From Cryobacterium sp. (GTDB lineage Bacteria; Actinomycetota; Actinomycetes; Actinomycetales; Microbacteriaceae), in NCBI RefSeq assembly GCF_026786305.1, contig NZ_JAJAYI010000108.1:29072-93071 (forward strand): a stretch of 64,000 nucleotides of DNA, read 5' to 3'. Positions 29,626 to 37,395 of the stretch are shown one piece after another. The notes under the pieces were generated by a model, which saw only the letters and a list, made by a program, of their open reading frames with translations, searched no databases and had not been told where the DNA came from. The position numbers and the translations under genes were made by a program. The first letter of the stretch is position 1; every line of letters begins with the position of its first letter.

Positions 29626-29635
29626 AAACTAGCTA

Positions 29636-29641
29636 TATAAT
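29636..29641 (+). promoter_or_regulatory. Consensus -10 of arsR-type gene (leaderless)
   Basis: A perfect TATAAT ends 6 nt before GTG 29648. No Shine-Dalgarno. Confidence 0.75.
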
Positions 29642-29647
29642 AAAGCT

Positions 29648-29983
29648 GTGCTAAGTTCTGGTCTGCCCGCCGCCCAACTCAAGTCTGACTTGTTCAAGTC
29701 GCTCGGGCATCCATTGCGCGTGCAGGTATTGGAACAGCTCGTAGCCGGTGAACGATCGGTGGGTAGCCTGGCCGAGGCCATCGGTTGCGAACTGTCGAAT
29801 CTGTCCCAACAGCTCGGCGTGCTTCGCCGGGCCGGCGTCGTCACCACCCGGCGCGACGGCAACACGATCTTCTACGCGGTGCGGGGCACCGATGCGGCCG
29901 AGCTGCTCGTCGCCGCCAAACGCATGGTCATGGCCAACCTCACCGACTCACACGCCCTGCTCCGCCACCTCGAGCAGGAGTAG
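29648..29983 (+). CDS. ArsR-family transcriptional regulator, Rv0081-like
   Basis: 111 residues with a winged helix-turn-helix. LFKSLGHPLRVQVLEQLV opens the fold, ELSNLSQQLGVLRRAGVV is the recognition helix, and RRDGNTIFYAV is the wing. There is no metal-binding cysteine motif of the arsenic type. The recognition helix and wing closely match my recollection of M. tuberculosis Rv0081, the ArsR protein heading the Rv0082-Rv0087 formate-hydrogenlyase-like operon and a hub of the hypoxia response. Here the gene faces that operon's 3' end, 22 bp away. It starts with GTG on a leaderless mRNA and has a palindrome in its own promoter. Confidence 0.85.
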   Translation: MLSSGLPAAQLKSDLFKSLGHPLRVQVLEQLVAGERSVGSLAEAIGCELSNLSQQLGVLRRAGVVTTRRDGNTIFYAVRGTDAAELLVAAKRMVMANLTDSHALLRHLEQE

Positions 29984-30005: not shown

Positions 30006-31565
30006 CTACAGGTCGTTTCCCGCGTAGGACAGGTTGAAGCTCTTGTTGGCGAGCGGAAAGTCCGGAACGATCGTCTCCGACAGGGCGTCCGGCACGGCGG
30101 GCCAGTTCAGGAAGGACGGGTCGACGACCTTCACCCGTGCGAGCGTGCCGTCCGCGGCGAGCTCGACCCGGTGGGTCGCCGTTCCGCGCCACGCTTCGAC
30201 CAGGGCGAGCCCGGTGCCGGCTGTGGTCGGGTTCACGCTGAACGCGGTTCCGGTGTGGCCCTGCAGCCGACGCAGCAGGTCGAGGGCGACCGCCGTCGAC
30301 ACCTCGACCTCGCGGGCGCGCACGGTGTACCGAGCGAGCACATCGCCACCGTCCTCGATCACGACGTGGAAGGCTTCGCCGAGGTTGACGAACGGATGCT
30401 CGTTGCGGGCATCCGTATCGATGCCGGACGCCCGGGCGACGTACCCGAGCGTTCCGATCGTGGTCGCGCGCGCGGTGGAGAGCCGGGCCGTGCCGCTGAA
30501 ACGACCGCGCACGATGGCGTGGCCGAGAGTGATACCAGCCAGTTCGGCCATGGCCGCGGCGATGCGGGACAGGTCGGCCGCATCGGGGAGCGCGTTCACC
30601 CGGGTGCCGCCGACGCTGAGGGCGCCGCGGAGCAGGCGGTGTCCGGTGACCGTTTTGTTGATGCGCAGAAGCTGTTCGCGCAACCCTTGGGCGTGGGCGT
30701 CGATGATGCCGAAGCCCACGTCGTTGGCGAGGGAGCCGAGGTCGGTCACGTGGTTGTAGAGGCGTTCCAGTTCCAGCAGCAGGGCACGCAGCAGCCGGTC
30801 GGGCTCGGAGACCTCGATACCGGCGGCCTGCTCGACGGCCATGACGAAGGCGAGGGAGTGGCCCACGGCGGTGTCGCCGCTGATCTGCTCGGCCAGGAAC
30901 ACCCCTTCGGCCGCGGACTTGCCCTCGAACACCTTCTCGACACCGCGATGCAGGTACCACTGACGGGCTTCCATGCGCACGATGGTTTCACCGACGACCG
31001 AGAATCGAAAGTGTCCGGGTTCGATGATGCCGGCGTGGATGGGACCGACGGCGATCTCGTAGACGCCGGGGCCCTCCACCGGCACGAACGGGAATGACTC
31101 GACGTCGGGCTCGAACTCGGGCACGACGGTGTTGGCGCGCAGCATCGGGTACCAGCCGCGCGGCCAGTGGCCATGCCGCACCAGGCGGTGCGGCTGCGGG
31201 TGGTTGAGAGGAACAACGCCATACAGGTCGCGTATTCCGCGCTCGAAGTTTCCGGCCGATAGGGAGATCTCGGCGAGGCTGGGTATCCACGCGTCGTCCC
31301 GCGGAACGCTGACCGACAGCTCGGCGCGTAGCGACGGGGTCGCGCCGACAAAGGAGTACACGATGCGAAAATCATCGTCGTCTTCGTGACAGGCGACCAG
31401 GGCCAGGCGACTGCCGGAGTCGAGCAACGCGCCAGCGGCGGCCGGTAGCTGTGCCCGGTCGAGGTGGCGCAGTTCGGCTCCGCCAGCCGCCCGGCCGCCA
31501 GGGATGGGATGACTGGCGGCCGGGTTGGCGGCGGTCAGGTCTTCTGGTGTTCGCTCGTCACGCAT
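30006..31565 (-). CDS. HyfG/HycE-like NuoC-NuoD fusion subunit lacking Ni-Fe ligands
   Basis: 519 residues. Residues about 30-150 are a NuoC-like domain (NFERGIRDLYGVVPLNHPQPHRL). The remainder is the large-subunit fold of group-4 hydrogenases and NuoD (RQWYLHRGVEKVFEGKS). Where hydrogenases have the CGIC ligand pair this protein reads SGDT (residues 229-232), and the C-terminal DPCxxC is DPSFLNW (482-488). The only cysteine is near residue 59. It therefore cannot hold a Ni-Fe centre and is an Ehr-type subunit. ATG 31565 overlaps the stop of the HyfF-like gene (TAATG). Confidence 0.9.
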   Translation of the reverse strand: MRDERTPEDLTAANPAASHPIPGGRAAGGAELRHLDRAQLPAAAGALLDSGSRLALVACHEDDDDFRIVYSFVGATPSLRAELSVSVPRDDAWIPSLAEISLSAGNFERGIRDLYGVVPLNHPQPHRLVRHGHWPRGWYPMLRANTVVPEFEPDVESFPFVPVEGPGVYEIAVGPIHAGIIEPGHFRFSVVGETIVRMEARQWYLHRGVEKVFEGKSAAEGVFLAEQISGDTAVGHSLAFVMAVEQAAGIEVSEPDRLLRALLLELERLYNHVTDLGSLANDVGFGIIDAHAQGLREQLLRINKTVTGHRLLRGALSVGGTRVNALPDAADLSRIAAAMAELAGITLGHAIVRGRFSGTARLSTARATTIGTLGYVARASGIDTDARNEHPFVNLGEAFHVVIEDGGDVLARYTVRAREVEVSTAVALDLLRRLQGHTGTAFSVNPTTAGTGLALVEAWRGTATHRVELAADGTLARVKVVDPSFLNWPAVPDALSETIVPDFPLANKSFNLSYAGNDL

Positions 31566-33013
31566 TAGTTGGAACCTCCGAGAACGGCTGTGGCCTGCAG
31601 GAGAAGGGCGCCGACCGGTTCGGCGACGAAGGCCACCGCGGCCGTCGTTGCCAGGGCCAGGATGATCGGCAGGCGCGGGCCGTGGGCCGAATAGTCGGGC
31701 GTGAACGCAACGTCGTGCGGGGGAGCGCCGATGGTCATCTGCACGGTCAGACGGGTGAACGCGGCGAAGATCACGAGCAGCAGCACGAGAGCTGCTCCGA
31801 CGACGACGCCGAGGCCCACCGACCAGCCGGCCATGATGATGCCGACCTCGGAAAAGAAGATGCTGAACGGGGGAAAGCCGACGATGGCGGCCATGGCGAT
31901 GAGCCAGGGCACGGCGAGGCCAGGTCGCCGGACCAGCAGGGCGCGCACATCGGAGATCACCGGGGTGCCCTCGACCTTGAGGATTCGCCCGGAGATCACG
32001 AACAGGGTCGCCTTGATCAGGCCGTGGCCGAGAATGTACAGCAGCACCGACGGGAGGGCGGCCGGGCCGATGGCCACACCGATCGCCATGAGGCCCATGT
32101 GTTCGATGCTGGAGTAAGCGAGCATCCGCTTGTAGTCGCGTTGCCGAATGAGCAGGGAGGCTGCCACGAGCAGCGACAGCAGGCCGCCGATGCTGAGCAT
32201 GGTGCGCAGAAACTCCGGGCCGATCACGAGGTTGGTGATCGACTGGATGCGCAGGATGGCGTAGAGCGCGACCGACAGCAACACGCCGGACATCAGGCCG
32301 GAGACCGGGGCCGGGGCCTGGCTGTGGGCATCCGGTAGCCAGCTGTGCATCGGGGCGAGGCCCGATTTGGTGGCGAAACCGAGCACGGCGAGGGCGCCGC
32401 CGGCCGTAATGAGCGCCGGGTCGAGGCCGAGGTCGGACTGGCTCAGCAGCAACCAGGACAGGGTTGGGGTGTCGGTACCGACCGAGGCGGCGTAGATCAG
32501 CACGATGCCGAGCAGTGCGATAGCCACACCGACCGAGCCGAGGATGACGTATTTCCAGGCAGCTTCGAGGGACCGGCGGGTGCGGTGGTGGCCGACCAGG
32601 AACGCGGTGGCGATGGTTGTGGCTTCGACGGCGGCCCACATCAGGCCGATGCTGTCAGCGAGTACGGCGAGCGACATCGCGGCGAGGAACAGGGCGATGA
32701 GCGCCTCGTAGCCGGCTGCGTCCTTGGTGCGGCTCGATGCGGCGCTGCTGAGGCCGCCCCAGGTCGAGATGAGCCCGACCGCTCCGACGACGCTGAGCAT
32801 GTAGGCCGAGAGGGCGTCGGCGCGCAGCATGCCGCCGCCACTGGCGGGCACGGTGCCGTTCAGTACCGCGCTGACCAGGAACAGTCCCGAGACGAGCACC
32901 GCGCTCGAGGCGGCAACACCGACGAAACGGCGAAGCTCCGAGGTACGCAGCAGCAGGCTGAGACCGGCGAAGAAGAGGGGGCCGACCAAGGGAATCCACA
33001 GAACAACAGACAT
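31565..33013 (-). CDS. HyfF-like proton-translocating antiporter-type membrane subunit
   Basis: 482 residues, about 13-14 helices, related to NuoN/NuoM and HyfF/HycC. A Glu in the fifth-helix region (MWAAVEATTIATAFLVGHHR) and GFATKSGLAPMHSWLPDAHSQAPAP, with the channel lysine and histidines, are typical of proton-pumping subunits. It is a membrane arm component of the Ehr-type complex. Its ATG overlaps the stop of the HyfE-like gene by one base (TAATG), so translation is coupled. Confidence 0.9.
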   Translation of the reverse strand: MSVVLWIPLVGPLFFAGLSLLLRTSELRRFVGVAASSAVLVSGLFLVSAVLNGTVPASGGGMLRADALSAYMLSVVGAVGLISTWGGLSSAASSRTKDAAGYEALIALFLAAMSLAVLADSIGLMWAAVEATTIATAFLVGHHRTRRSLEAAWKYVILGSVGVAIALLGIVLIYAASVGTDTPTLSWLLLSQSDLGLDPALITAGGALAVLGFATKSGLAPMHSWLPDAHSQAPAPVSGLMSGVLLSVALYAILRIQSITNLVIGPEFLRTMLSIGGLLSLLVAASLLIRQRDYKRMLAYSSIEHMGLMAIGVAIGPAALPSVLLYILGHGLIKATLFVISGRILKVEGTPVISDVRALLVRRPGLAVPWLIAMAAIVGFPPFSIFFSEVGIIMAGWSVGLGVVVGAALVLLLVIFAAFTRLTVQMTIGAPPHDVAFTPDYSAHGPRLPIILALATTAAVAFVAEPVGALLLQATAVLGGSN

Positions 33014-33672
33014 TAATCGTGCAACTCTCTGAGCTGATCGACGGCGGTGCCGCCGAACTTGGTGCGCATGCGGCCGGCGAACACGTGCAGGATGAGAACG
33101 ACCAGCAGCACGTCGAGGGAGACCGCGAACTCGAGCAGAATCGGCACGCCGCCGCTGGTCAAAAACGCGATCGTGGCAATGCCGTTATCGAGCAGCAGAA
33201 AGCCGATGAGCTGCGAGCGGGCGCGGCGTCGGCTGATCAGCAGCAGAAAGCCGATGAGCACCATGGCGAGGCCGATCGGTGCGGCGTGGCCGGTCGTGGT
33301 GTCGCCGAGGCCGAAGACTCGGCTGACCACGACGTAGCTGAGGATGGTCAGCAGGGTGACGGCGAGTAGCGCGGCGGTCGGGTTGAGCCTGGGGGACTCC
33401 TGAATCTGCTTGATCGACGCTTTGGACTGGTGTGCGAGTACCCAGGGAAGGCCGATGCCCTTGACCGAGAGAATCAGCAGCGACACGAGCACGAGTTCGG
33501 ATTCGCCCTCGGCGATGCCGATCACCGCGACGAGCGCGGCGAGGGCGACGCCCTGCAGGGCGAGCAACCGGATCGAGGCGAGCAGGGAGTGACGCCAGAC
33601 CATGAGTGCGCTCGTAAGGAGCAGGGCGCCGGTGCAGAGGCCGATCAGTTGCGGATAGAACGTTTCGAACAC
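33013..33672 (-). CDS. HyfE-like membrane subunit (NuoK-related)
   Basis: 219 residues, about six to seven helices. SLLILSVKGIGLPWVLAHQ and LIGFLLLDNGIATIAFLTSGG match HyfE, whose second half resembles NuoK. Start GTG 33672 lies 13 bp after the stop of the HyfC-like gene. Part of the membrane arm of the Ehr-type complex. Confidence 0.88.
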   Translation of the reverse strand: MFETFYPQLIGLCTGALLLTSALMVWRHSLLASIRLLALQGVALAALVAVIGIAEGESELVLVSLLILSVKGIGLPWVLAHQSKASIKQIQESPRLNPTAALLAVTLLTILSYVVVSRVFGLGDTTTGHAAPIGLAMVLIGFLLLISRRRARSQLIGFLLLDNGIATIAFLTSGGVPILLEFAVSLDVLLVVLILHVFAGRMRTKFGGTAVDQLRELHD

Positions 33673-33684
33673 GACGGATGCTCC

Positions 33685-34635
33685 TCAGGCGACCAGATAG
33701 GAGGCGGTGACGGCCAGGAAGGCGAGGGCAAAGGAGCCCGCGAGTAGCTCGGGCACCTGGAACAGGCGCACCTTGGCCAGAAAGATCTCGCCGACGCTGA
33801 GCAGCACGCCGAGTACGAGCACCTTCACGGCGATGCTGACGACGCCGATCAGCAGGCCGAGGGCGCTGAAATCGGTGACGACGCCCCACGGCGCGATCAG
33901 GTTGCTGACCAGTCCGAGCAGGGCGGCGAGCTTCAGCCAGGAGCCGACTTCGAGCCAGACCAGGTCGCGTCCGCTCGCTTCGAGGGTCATTGCCTCGTGC
34001 AACATGGTCAGTTCAAGATGGGTGCCCGGATTGTCCACCGGCAGGCGGCCGGTTTCGGCCATGATCGCGATCGACAGTGCCACGAGGGCGAGGACGCTGA
34101 CCGGCGAGATGATGACCTCGGGGGAGAACAGCCGGGTTTCGACGATGGCAGAGATGGTGCTGGTTCCAGCCGGGATCGACAGGGCGTAGACCGAGAGCAG
34201 CAGTGTCGGTTCGACGAGCGCGGCGACGGTCATGTGCCGGCTCGAGCCCATGCCGCCGAATGCCGTTCCGCCGTCGAGCCCGACCAGGGCGAGCGCGACC
34301 ACGCCGATGAGCATGACCGAGACGATGACAAACAGATCGCTTGGAATGGATGGAAACGGGATGGTGCCCACGAGCGGCAGCAGCACGCAGAGCAGGAGGC
34401 TCGAGACCATCAGGGCTACCGGGCCGACCCGCAGCATCCAGCTGCTGTCGGCGGCGCGCACCGGGTTCTTCACGAGCAGCTTGCGCACGTCACGCCAGGG
34501 CTGCCAGATTCCGGCGCCGGCGCGTCCTTCGATCGTGGCCCGCACCTGGCGGATCACACCGATGAGCAGCGGGGCGAGGAAGACGAACAGCACAACCTGA
34601 ACGAGAGCGATGATGATCGCGCTGACGGCGGCCAT
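33685..34635 (-). CDS. HyfC/HycD-like NuoH-type membrane subunit
   Basis: 316 residues, about eight helices. ETGRLPVDNPGTHLELTM followed by LHEAMTLEASG is the NuoH/HycD signature of the loop that contacts the hydrophilic arm. APLLIGVIRQVRATIEGRAG near the N-terminus is also typical. The frame is open to 34716, but ATG 34635 begins exactly at the conserved hydrophobic N-terminus and overlaps by one base (TGATG) with the stop of a 22-codon frame that itself overlaps the end of the HyfB-like gene. Confidence 0.88.
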   Translation of the reverse strand: MAAVSAIIIALVQVVLFVFLAPLLIGVIRQVRATIEGRAGAGIWQPWRDVRKLLVKNPVRAADSSWMLRVGPVALMVSSLLLCVLLPLVGTIPFPSIPSDLFVIVSVMLIGVVALALVGLDGGTAFGGMGSSRHMTVAALVEPTLLLSVYALSIPAGTSTISAIVETRLFSPEVIISPVSVLALVALSIAIMAETGRLPVDNPGTHLELTMLHEAMTLEASGRDLVWLEVGSWLKLAALLGLVSNLIAPWGVVTDFSALGLLIGVVSIAVKVLVLGVLLSVGEIFLAKVRLFQVPELLAGSFALAFLAVTASYLVA

Positions 34636-34703
34636 CACAGGGACACCGCGCTCAGTTCGCGTGGGGCCAGCGCGACGGTGGCGGGAGTACCGAGGGCGTT
34701 CAT
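34635..34703 (-). CDS. Possible 22-codon coupling ORF between HyfB- and HyfC-like genes
   Basis: ATG 34703 overlaps the HyfB-like stop as ATGA. The frame encodes MNALGTPATVALAPRELSAV plus two residues and ends TGA 34637-34635, which shares its last base with the HyfC-like ATG. This exact nesting fills the 64-nt gap between the two genes with a translated path for terminating ribosomes. Whether the peptide has any function is unknown; it could merely carry ribosomes to hyfC. No family resemblance. Confidence 0.4.
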   Translation of the reverse strand: MNALGTPATVALAPRELSAVSL

Positions 34704-36718
34704 AGCGAGACCACAATCAGCACGATCAGGAGAGCAACAAAAGAATAGGACAGGTAGCGGTGGATGCTGCCGTTGGCGACGTGGCGCACGACGATTCCGT
34801 AGCGTTGGAACAGGTTGAGCACCGGCCGATACAGCCGGGTTTCGATGACATCCGAGACACGCTGTTCCACCCGGACGTGTTCCACCAGATAGCGGGACTC
34901 GGCCACGTGGGTGACCTGCACGTCGCGCGACGGCTTGAGCACGTCGTCGAAGACCCGCACGAGCGGCTCGGCGTAGGAGGTCGCGGTGTACTGCATGCGC
35001 GGCCGTGCTCGGGAGCCGCCGCCACCCCATGGCAGGTCAATGGTGCGATGGGGATGCCGGCGAGCCGACACGATGATCGACACGATCACCGGGATGGCGA
35101 CGAGGGCCGACAGTGCGACGAGTATGATCGGGTCGAGGACCGCCCCGATGCCCGGAAGTGACACGCCGCCGAGGCCGACCGACTGCACCGCGACGGTGGG
35201 GTTCGAGCTGATCGTGTTCGCCACGAGCGCGGCGATCGGCCCGGGGAGCAGCCCGAGGGCGAGCACCGAGAGGGCGCCGAGGGCCAGGGCGAGTTGCATG
35301 AGCGGCGGCACCTCACGGGCATCCGCGGCTTCAACGCTGCGGGGACGCGCGAGGAAGGCGATGCCGTAGGCCTTGACGAAGGTAAGCAGGGCCAGGCCGG
35401 CGGTGAGCGCGATCACGGCAACGGCGAGGGGCATGGCAACGGATGCCGCGACCGAGACGACCGCCCCGTCAAGGCGACCGCCGTGAATGAGTGACTGCAG
35501 CAGCATCCACTCGGCGACGAAACCGCTCGTGATCGGGATGGCGGCGGCGCCGAGGCTCGCGATGCCGAACGCCGAAGCGGTCACCGGCATGCGTGCGCCG
35601 AGCCCGCCGAGCCGGTCGAGGTTGCGTTCCCCGGTGGCGTGGATGATGGCACCGGCGCCGAGAAACAGCGTCGATTTGAACGCGGCGTGGCTGACGGCGA
35701 GGAGCAGGGCGGCGACGAGCGCGGCATCCGCTGCCGCCGTGGCGTCGTACCCGCGCAGCAGCATGCTCGCGCCGAGTCCGAGAAAGACCAGGCCCATGTT
35801 CTCGGTCGTCGAGTAGGCGAGCAGTACCTTGAGATCGCTCGATACGGAGGCCTGCAGAATGCCGTAGAGAGCGGATGCGCCACCGACCAACATGATCGCG
35901 ATGGCCCACCAGGCGGGGCCGTCGGGCAGCAGGCGCACGCAGACCAGCAGACCGCCGTAGACACCGATCTTGACCATGGCGCCACTCATCGCGGCCGAGA
36001 CGTGGCTGGGCGCTTCGGGCAACACCCGGGGCACCCAGACGTGCAGCGGCACGAGTTCGGCCTTACCGCCGAAGCCGAGTAGGAACAGCACGAAGGCCAC
36101 GTTCGCCGGCCCTGAGCCGGGTTCAATCGCCTGCAGGTTGGTGAAGCTCGTACCATTCGACGCGGCTGCGAGCACGGCGAATCCGGCAAGAATGAAGAAG
36201 AAGCTCAGCTGCGACATTGCCGAGTACCAGATGCCGGCGGAGGCGACGGTGGCGCGGCTCGCGTGGTCGGCGAGCAGCAGCACGGTCGAGCCGAGGGTCA
36301 TGATTTCCCAGGCGAGCAGGAACGAGACCGAGTCTGTCGCGGCTGGGACGAGCTGCATCCCCACGAGGAACACCGGCATGGCTGCCCAAGCGGTACGGCT
36401 CGCGTCGGGGCCGCGGGTGGAACTCATGGCGTAGAGCGACACGAGAATACCGACGCCGGAGACGATGAGCATGAACAGGCCGCCGAGACGATCGGGGGCC
36501 AGCAGCAGCGGGTCCATCGGAAGCGCGATCGGAATGAGCAGGCCGCCGGTGGCGCCCAGCAGGGCGGCGAGTCCGGTCAGAAAACCGGTCACCGCGATCA
36601 GGGTGCAGAGGATGCCGCCCGCCCGCGACCGCAGAGACGGTGCCCCCGCGAGGGCGCTCACCACGGCCAGCGCGCCGAGGCCCAGTTGCAGGAGCAGTCC
36701 TGCGCCGATGCCGGTCAT
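34700..36718 (-). CDS. HyfB-like antiporter-type membrane subunit
   Basis: 672 residues, about 15-16 helices, from the HyfB/HycC and MnhD/NuoL superfamily. LLAWEIMTLGSTVLLLADH contains the conserved helix-5 Glu. FGGKAELVPLHVWVPRVLPEAPSHVSAAMSGAM is the proton-channel helix with its Lys and His. VLLAYSTTENMGLVFLGLG is the helix-8 region. The C-terminal hydrophilic segment and last helix resemble the lateral extension of HyfB proteins. GTG/ATG 36718 overlaps the HyfI-like stop by 4 bp. Probably the main ion-pumping unit of the complex. Confidence 0.9.
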   Translation of the reverse strand: MTGIGAGLLLQLGLGALAVVSALAGAPSLRSRAGGILCTLIAVTGFLTGLAALLGATGGLLIPIALPMDPLLLAPDRLGGLFMLIVSGVGILVSLYAMSSTRGPDASRTAWAAMPVFLVGMQLVPAATDSVSFLLAWEIMTLGSTVLLLADHASRATVASAGIWYSAMSQLSFFFILAGFAVLAAASNGTSFTNLQAIEPGSGPANVAFVLFLLGFGGKAELVPLHVWVPRVLPEAPSHVSAAMSGAMVKIGVYGGLLVCVRLLPDGPAWWAIAIMLVGGASALYGILQASVSSDLKVLLAYSTTENMGLVFLGLGASMLLRGYDATAAADAALVAALLLAVSHAAFKSTLFLGAGAIIHATGERNLDRLGGLGARMPVTASAFGIASLGAAAIPITSGFVAEWMLLQSLIHGGRLDGAVVSVAASVAMPLAVAVIALTAGLALLTFVKAYGIAFLARPRSVEAADAREVPPLMQLALALGALSVLALGLLPGPIAALVANTISSNPTVAVQSVGLGGVSLPGIGAVLDPIILVALSALVAIPVIVSIIVSARRHPHRTIDLPWGGGGSRARPRMQYTATSYAEPLVRVFDDVLKPSRDVQVTHVAESRYLVEHVRVEQRVSDVIETRLYRPVLNLFQRYGIVVRHVANGSIHRYLSYSFVALLIVLIVVSL

Positions 36719-37200
36719 CGGCCGGTCATCCTGCGCAGGGCCTCTACGATGTCGGCCGGCTCCGGCGGACTGCCGTGCACCTCGATGTCGACGTGCACGA
36801 AGTCCGACACGGGCCCCATGATGCCATAGCCGTCGCGGAAGGCTCCACCGTGCAGGGCGCAGTCACCGACCGCGATCACAAACCGGGGCGTGGGGGTGGC
36901 CTCGATGGTGCGGCGCAGCGGCTCAGCCATGTTGCGGGTCACGCTGCCGACGATGAGCAGCACGTCGGCGTGCCGCGGCGAAGGCACAAGGCGCACGCCG
37001 TAGCGTTCCACGTCGTAAACCGGGCCGAACGCGGCGGACACTTCAAGCGCACAGTCATTACAGCCGCCAGCATTGATGAAACGCACCTGCACGCTGCCGC
37101 CGAAGACCTGCGCACCCTCAAACAGCGGCGGGGCCGATGGTGCCGGTTCGGCGATGCGAGCGCCGTGACGAATAAGCGTGGCCAATCGCAGGAAACTCAT
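36715..37200 (-). CDS. HyfI/HycG-like NuoB-type small subunit with an incomplete Fe-S ligand set
   Basis: 161 residues, first gene of the operon. FINAGGCNDCALEV carries Cys47 and Cys50 (the CxxC of group-4 small subunits), GSVTRNMAEPLRRT follows, and GDCALHGG carries Cys113. The fourth [4Fe-4S] ligand, normally in GCPPxP, is replaced by Ser144 (VHGSPPEPAD). In complex I and group-4 hydrogenases this cluster hands electrons to or from the active site. Serine can occasionally ligate iron, so a modified cluster or none is possible. ATG 37200 has GGGGAC upstream. Confidence 0.88.
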   Translation of the reverse strand: MSFLRLATLIRHGARIAEPAPSAPPLFEGAQVFGGSVQVRFINAGGCNDCALEVSAAFGPVYDVERYGVRLVPSPRHADVLLIVGSVTRNMAEPLRRTIEATPTPRFVIAVGDCALHGGAFRDGYGIMGPVSDFVHVDIEVHGSPPEPADIVEALRRMTGR

Positions 37201-37325: not shown

Positions 37326-37342
37326 AAGTAACTTCATTACTT
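37326..37342. promoter_or_regulatory. Palindromic operator candidate at the Ehr-type operon promoter
   Basis: AAGTAA-CTTCA-TTACTT is a perfect 6-bp inverted repeat with a 5-nt spacer, about 125 bp upstream of the first gene. Its geometry equals that of the palindrome at the ArsR-type gene (29609-29625), although the arms differ. Confidence 0.6.
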
Positions 37343-37343
37343 C

Positions 37344-37352
37344 TTTATATAA
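37344..37352 (-). promoter_or_regulatory. AT-rich promoter core of the Ehr-type operon
   Basis: On the minus strand TTATATAAA lies directly upstream of the palindrome in an AT-rich island of about 50 bp (37335-37375). The likely transcript would begin in or near the palindrome and have a leader of about 130 nt. Confidence 0.5.
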
Positions 37353-37395
37353 CTATATGAAGAATTTAGCAAATAGATCGAGAGGCGAGCACTGC

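Follow-up and report, generated by a model that had tools for sequence, protein, structure and literature searches.

A 64,000-nucleotide stretch of a Cryobacterium genome (contig NZ_JAJAYI010000108.1), here called the window, carries a six-gene operon for a membrane complex of the energy-converting-hydrogenase-related (Ehr) type with an incomplete iron-sulfur (Fe-S) site. By sequence comparison, the Ni-Fe ligands are gone from the large subunit, the Fe-S site of the small subunit is altered throughout the clade of the window and loses further ligands in sister lineages, and no gene for a ferredoxin input lies close to the operon. Purifying selection has maintained the membrane arm and the coupling subunit, together with most of the large-subunit proton path. 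There is about an even chance that the operon encodes a working, ion-translocating Ehr complex whose coupling would be independent of electron flow through the N2-type cluster. The drive would then probably be ligand binding or proton-coupled chemistry in a pocket of the large subunit, and electrons passing the altered cluster would not be the driver in this clade.

The window belongs to a 3.06 Mb genome of the family Microbacteriaceae, and the small subunits closest to its own are those of Cryobacterium glaciale and C. luteum (96% identity). The operon runs on the minus strand from 37200 to 30006 in the order S, B, C, E, F, L. S (36715..37200, 161 amino acids) is a NuoB/HycG-like small subunit matching PF01058 (Oxidored_q6, 2.2e-26), with HycG (7z0s_G) and MbhJ (6cfw_J) as nearest solved chains. 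B (34700..36718, 672 amino acids) and F (31565..33013, 482 amino acids) are antiporter subunits of the NuoL/HyfB and NuoN/HyfF kind, respectively, each with PF00361 (Proton_antipo_M). C (33685..34635, 316 amino acids) is NuoH/HycD-like with PF00146 (NADHdh), the ATG start at 34635 having been chosen by us. E (33013..33672, 219 amino acids) was assigned as a HyfE-like membrane subunit on position and conservation and has no Pfam match. L (30006..31565, 519 amino acids) is a NuoC+D/HycE-like large subunit with PF00329 (Complex1_30kDa), PF00346 (Complex1_49kDa) and PF00374 (NiFeSe_Hases), matching HycE (7z0s_E) at 9.6e-51; Complex1_49kDa has a single place in the window genome. With one strand and fitting Pfam families in five of the six genes, the initial annotation of the sequence was right to see here a coupled, group-4-hydrogenase-like complex. 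A 22-codon open reading frame (ORF) at 34635-34703 overlaps both the B stop and the C start; in a comparison with 27 relatives, 26 have no such ORF, and a different one of 22 codons lies between B and C in one related locus (L141).

Ehr complexes are described as having a group-4-type large subunit without the Ni- and Fe-binding cysteines (PMC6349859, PMC7304191; papers are cited here and below for individual passages). In L, alignment to HycE places SGDT (residues 229-232, 30870..30881, minus strand) at the N-terminal Ni-Fe motif CGIC, as first annotated. The C-terminal motif had been misplaced. DPSFLNW (residues 482-488, 30102..30122, minus strand), a conserved segment taken as the equivalent of DPCxxC, was rejected for that role, as HMMER and MAFFT both set it opposite AATYANW of HycE and it faces AATYSNW in rows of the CGIC type. 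The true counterpart of DPCYSC in both alignments is NLSYAG (residues 511-516, 30018..30035, minus strand), in which Ser513 and Gly516 occupy the last two cysteine positions. The total lack of Ni-Fe ligands stands all the same: the four positions read S229, T232, S513 and G516, and L has neither of the two CxxC motifs of a group 4 [NiFe] hydrogenase. NuoB-like, NuoH-like and antiporter-like subunits are co-encoded, and the proposed Ehr assignment is borne out. HypD had no match in the whole window genome, whereas the same search gave matches in 4 of 14 known genomes; the claim that maturation genes are missing holds for HypD, the other hyp genes lying outside the search. The tyrosine of E. coli NuoCD is presumably the equivalent of Y87 of Nqo4. 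Opposite this tyrosine L has Gly230, and the loop is of the hydrogenase type (EPGHFR). Y87 is the quinone-binding tyrosine of the 49-kDa subunit (PMC7684303), and L thus has glycine at the quinone-tyrosine position of complex I.

In S, three Fe-S ligand positions are kept on the minus strand, Cys47 (37060..37062), Cys50 (37051..37053) and Cys114 (36859..36861), the first two forming a CxxC motif as opposed to the CC of complex I. At the fourth position, opposite the cysteine of GCPP in HycG and MbhJ, stands Ser144 (AGT, 36769..36771, minus strand), as had been read, so that the intact four-Cys site usual for Ehr complexes is missing. Among 81 small subunits (the window and the best 80 of 215 matching genome-contig loci), the residue at 144 is Cys 47 times, Ser 21 times, Asn 11 times and Thr twice. 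Positions 47, 50 and 114 are Cys in all 81, with a slight search bias in favour of the first two, which one of the six search patterns spans. The 34 rows without Cys144, here called the window clade, comprise the window, 32 further Cryobacterium records and one record titled Acidobacteria MAG G2_35 (L032). All 33 Cryobacterium rows have S, N or T, as do 34/34 operons of the clade, which answers the question of the initial annotation whether Ser144 is clade-wide. A sequencing error was rejected as its origin because 32 further Cryobacterium records agree in having one of S, N and T at this position. An Acidobacteria origin of L032 was likewise rejected, its S and L being identical to those of a locus (L202) from a genome in the window's family (G870); the label on the record is probably wrong. 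S was matched in 39 of 57 Cryobacterium genomes, in one of them in broken frames, and the 29 loci of the genus that were read, which overlap with the named records, are all of the incomplete type.

The loss of ligands extends beyond this clade. From loci of at least 5 kb with matches to both S and L, 123 distinct operons were assembled, with Cryobacterium over-represented; L035 and L057 (no L match), L151 (broken frames), L228 (empty) and the first operon of L146 (same contig as L004) were omitted, and the exact duplicates L202, L212 and L221 removed. Four ligand cysteines are found in 74 operons, 48 are incomplete, and one (L204) was left uncalled since its S had been wrongly cut, the same genome reading D, D, D, S in L198. 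Two sister Microbacteriaceae (G989, G981) have a single ligand cysteine (G/A47, C50, A114, S144), while G239 and G282 (L141, L142) read T, C, D, D at the four positions. A second operon of Cryobacterium sp. Y50 has no ligand cysteine (D, T, D, D). In a distant clade (L203, L205, L206, L207, L232, with L204), ligand cysteines, the GDT motif and the canopy Arg of L are all gone, and the main channel residues of B and F are kept where read. Only Cys144 is lost in L143 and L233, and kept in their sister L152. In L144 and L145 position 114 is P and position 144 is S, but two cysteines flank 114, each at a distance of two residues, which makes a shifted ligand possible in these two. Several of the lost cysteines are replaced by Asp in two low-Cys clades, where a carboxylate metal site, or charges mimicking a cluster, may take the place of the cluster. 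In the eight operons in which L has CxxC at the first Ni-Fe position (three CGIC, five CAAC-type), S is four-Cys without exception. On a tree of 71 large subunits, complete and incomplete sites are separated by at least four changes, and the window clade and its one-Cys sisters form a single branch (14 rows, SH-aLRT 99). This tree, for which S was not used, was built quickly, leaving 18 of 68 inner branches open, with long rows flagged. The description of the Fe-S site as damaged was accurate as to the alteration and understated its extent, the change being clade-wide and part of a series reaching zero ligand cysteines.

The second Y50 operon is complete (L146:13469-19901 and L147:1-4656, presumably of contig NZ_PJJM01000102.1). 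It is convergent with the first, the two ends lying about 4 kb apart and the two S genes 18 kb apart, and is the sole case of a second, diverged S in the 57 Cryobacterium genomes. Used as a query, this S matched 11 of 299 Microbacteriaceae genomes (E 1e-10), all 11 with an incomplete site. Two further variants were also observed. In L153, L154, L155, L231 and L235 a CAAC-like motif is accompanied by two Cys at the C-terminal Ni-Fe positions and a Glu for the canopy Asp. In L218, L229 and L230 GDE replaces GDT, and one ORF of 263-272 amino acids combines a four-Cys S with two ferredoxin motifs, possibly a form that retains electron input.

Within S, the replacements made throughout the window clade are concentrated at the cluster. 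A set of 60 GDT/GDS-type homologues with four Cys (14 of the 74 four-Cys rows fall outside it) is invariant at 35 of the 125 core positions (35-159). Four of these 35, D43, G49, E51 and C144, are common to 60/60 homologues and never kept in the 34 window-clade rows (D43N, G49D, E51A/P, C144S/N/T). Three of them are no more than four residues away from Cys47 or Cys50 and the fourth is a ligand, so the wholesale replacements are all at the cluster site. Cys118, present in 50 of the 60, is Gly in 34/34. Asp49, new in the clade (34/34), was considered as a substitute ligand and rejected: both one-Cys sisters have it too, which argues that it is not tied to the cluster.

The genes remain under purifying selection. 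In eight Cryobacterium pairs the ratio of nonsynonymous to synonymous substitution rates (dN/dS) was 0.04-0.14 for S, 0.07-0.19 for L and 0.05-0.15 for B, and in no pair did any of the six genes exceed 0.19. Three four-Cys control pairs gave 0.06-0.13 for S and 0.22-0.29 for L. For S, the one-Cys pair gave 0.14 and L141/L142 a rough 0.20 at a synonymous divergence above 1. The zero-Cys pair L203/L205 was looser (S 0.23, L 0.37, E 0.54); the S value of L204/L205 is meaningless owing to a wrong extraction of S. Residues E138, K219, H344, K348 and E403 of B and E130, K216, H330 and K334 of F are present in 34/34 window-clade rows, 2/2 one-Cys rows, 3/3 rows of zero/one-Cys group A and 4/4 of zero-Cys group B. 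E389 of F shows the same pattern apart from one Val in the window clade (33/34). Elsewhere, zero-Cys B and L144/L145 have lost K297 of B, zero/one-Cys A has Asn for D293 of F, the three rows of the AATT type have Ala for E130 of F, and H206 and H213 of C are altered in zero-Cys B. Subunit B of AATT-type loci enters this comparison as gaps.

The proton path described for HycE consists of Glu193, a canopy of Ser283, Arg478 and Asp529, and His284, Glu437 and Arg395 (PMC9474812). Its counterparts in L were read by us from the L/HycE alignment. His272 and Glu419 are kept in 34/34 window-clade, 2/2 one-Cys and 3/3 zero/one-Cys rows, and Arg460, the counterpart of Arg478, in 33/34, 2/2 and 3/3. Asn271 (Ser283 in HycE) and Arg378 (Arg395) are found in 34/34 window-clade rows, and Glu182 (Glu193) is E in 20 and D in 14. 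Arg460 is lost in 6/6 zero-Cys B rows, so the pocket there, if functional, would work in another way. All 96 rows of the four GDT-type groups, which were partly selected on that motif, retain G230-D231. The most conserved positions of L are frequent in segments 174-190 (13/17) and 504-519 (10/16); the SGDT segment as a whole holds 6/22.

As to electron input, no ferredoxin motif C..C..C...C occurs in any frame of the window, in keeping with the reported absence of a ferredoxin-type subunit. Convincing two-motif ferredoxin ORFs lie within 3 kb in 6 of 121 loci, three of the CGIC and three of the GDE type. No redox partner gene was found near the operon; clustering of neighbours over 52 loci was a weak test, as greedy ORF choice missed many operon genes. 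It returned the ArsR regulator in 17 loci, which belong to four groups; most other clusters bridging groups resembled antisense ORFs. The window genome has five Molybdopterin-family places, all on other contigs, so a donor may be encoded elsewhere. The initial annotation had thought of a pump driven by a quinone, formate or protein partner, and had asked how, or whether, electrons pass through the complex. That question is judged to be the right one; no partner gene was found nearby, and a donor from elsewhere in the genome is a possible part of the proposal.

In the explanation favoured here, a small molecule or partner would bind, or react in a proton-coupled manner, in the L pocket (G230-D231-T232, H206, H272, R378, E419, R460, S513, D518), and this event would be coupled to a movement of protons that reaches the two antiporter subunits (B and F) by way of C. 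Several points weigh against it. The ligand, the reaction and the ion flux are predictions. The canopy Asp529 of HycE corresponds to Asn511 in L (33/34 window-clade rows, Asp in none), R378 is Lys in 2/3 zero/one-Cys rows, Gly replaces Glu182 in 12 of 57 four-Cys rows (17 of the 74 being omitted from the pocket counts), and Arg/Glu residues close to the start of C differ in the zero/one-Cys group. The Molybdopterin-family places could include a donor, and the low-Cys relatives could have shifted function independently. Cys47, Cys50 and Cys114 are invariant in 34/34 window-clade rows, so a cluster may still form. The last point underlies the strongest rival, possible but doubtful, that the three cysteines bind either a [4Fe-4S] cluster having a free iron or a [3Fe-4S] cluster, and that this cluster itself reduces or binds a small substrate. 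A precedent is the membrane-bound sulfane sulfur reductase (MBS), in which the proximal [4Fe-4S] cluster has only three Cys ligands, the free Fe is held to be catalytic, and two of the four Ni-Fe cysteines are missing (PMC7684303). The invariance itself is weak evidence, because about half of the S core (64/125 positions) is invariant in the clade and the chance of all three being kept is about 0.13. The missing cysteine is a different one from that of MBS, there is no MbsN-like ferredoxin subunit in the window, and the nearest sisters lack Cys47 and Cys114.

A plain cation/proton antiporter, with the soluble subunits as a scaffold and ion exchange without cytoplasmic chemistry, is unlikely. 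It would accord with the intact channel residues and with the failure to find redox input nearby, but S and L are constrained about like the membrane subunits, the two L segments named above (though not that of SGDT) are strongly conserved, and an MrpE (MNHE) match on another contig of the genome, outside the operon, probably marks a dedicated Mrp antiporter. The antiporter with vestigial redox subunits that had been suggested is disfavoured for the same reason, as purifying selection acts on S and L much as it does on the membrane subunits, and L retains most of its pocket and proton-path residues. Less probable still is an ordinary redox Ehr complex, in which the altered cluster would still relay electrons from some donor to an acceptor in L, a quinone or another. 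The four-Cys relatives (74/123 operons) could operate in this way, a link between formate dehydrogenase and Ehr has been proposed in other phyla (PMC6349859), and the Molybdopterin-family places would suit a donor; against this stand the lack of a partner gene nearby, Gly230 and the hydrogenase-type loop, and the one-Cys sisters, which would require another route. Decay of an operon heading for loss would explain why 18 of 57 Cryobacterium genomes have no S match (E 1e-5) and one more (G403) has broken frames, yet the low dN/dS of all six genes and the open frames of the window make it very improbable. The G403 copy (L151) is broken in S, B, C and F, through either assembly error or decay.

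Downstream of and convergent with the operon lies a gene for an ArsR-family regulator (29648..29983, plus strand, Pfam). Of 121 related loci, 80 have an ArsR-like ORF no more than 1.5 kb from the operon, mostly upstream on the same strand in four-Cys operons and downstream and convergent in Cryobacterium. The pattern TAG.TATATAA..AAG, built from both upstream regions, has two matches in the genome, TAGTTATATAAAGAAG before S (37340..37355, minus strand), a candidate operator or promoter in common with arsR, and TAGCTATATAATAAAG before arsR (29630..29645, plus strand), the sole other match; the reversed control gave none. The element may be an operator or promoter, and expression of the operon is probably controlled by the adjacent regulator. 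A TATAAT box stands six bases before the GTG start of arsR (29636-29648), a spacing that suggests a leaderless transcript. An unannotated protein of 464 amino acids was seen beside the operons in six loci of three distant Ehr groups (e.g. L203:15307-16701).

How closely ion pumping is tied to the redox step is an open question in this superfamily. Ehr complexes without Ni-Fe cysteines are already known (PMC6349859, PMC7304191, PMC6728331), and redox-driven charge translocation by them is, in the passage cited, suspected and not demonstrated (PMC6349859). Among the matches listed in the open-access literature, none was found to describe the loss of Fe-S from Ehr complexes, although an earlier mention is possible, and the window may represent a new form of Ehr with an incomplete Fe-S site. 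The stepwise vanishing of metal sites from a complex-I-like machine that stays intact in this cold-loving bacterium and related ones suggests that it may work without the passage of electrons through those sites. The natural series of dropped cofactor ligands, with channels and pocket kept, provides ready variants, several from named environmental bacteria, that bear on whether such a machine can run without electron transfer. The series is relevant, too, to the labelling of Rv0082-Rv0087 of Mycobacterium tuberculosis as a formate hydrogenlyase.

The M. tuberculosis operon, whose proteins were compared by description, resembles that of the window in its subunit set, in the absence of Ni-Fe cysteines, in the lack of a HypD match and in the adjoining ArsR-family regulator of many relatives; it differs in that the Fe-S site of the window is incomplete and its arsR is downstream and convergent, not upstream. 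In M. tuberculosis the adjoining regulator is Rv0081, of the ArsR type. Rv0081 controls Rv0082-Rv0087 (PMC6901956), which have been named EHR in a paper that gives the function of Ehr as unknown (PMC6728331). MBS of Pyrococcus furiosus shares with the window a proximal site of three cysteines and the loss of Ni-Fe. Its unused Cys is the first of the pair, C123 being among the ligands (PMC7684303), whereas the gap of the window is at position 144, and it has MbsN with two clusters and two Cys kept in MbsL, neither of which has a counterpart in the window. The closest solved chains are HycE and HycG of E. coli formate hydrogenlyase, and HycE E193, H284, R395, E437 and R478 all have counterparts in L. 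The window differs in lacking Ni-Fe ligands and a HycB/HycF-like ORF, in the change of Asp529 to Asn and in its incomplete Fe-S site. With complex I it has core and membrane-arm subunits in common, and is set apart by the single Complex1_49kDa place, the Gly opposite the NuoCD Tyr, the hydrogenase-type loop and CxxC in place of CC. The antiporter subunits are homologous to those of Mrp antiporters, from which the complex is distinguished by its conserved soluble subunits and an operon without MrpE.

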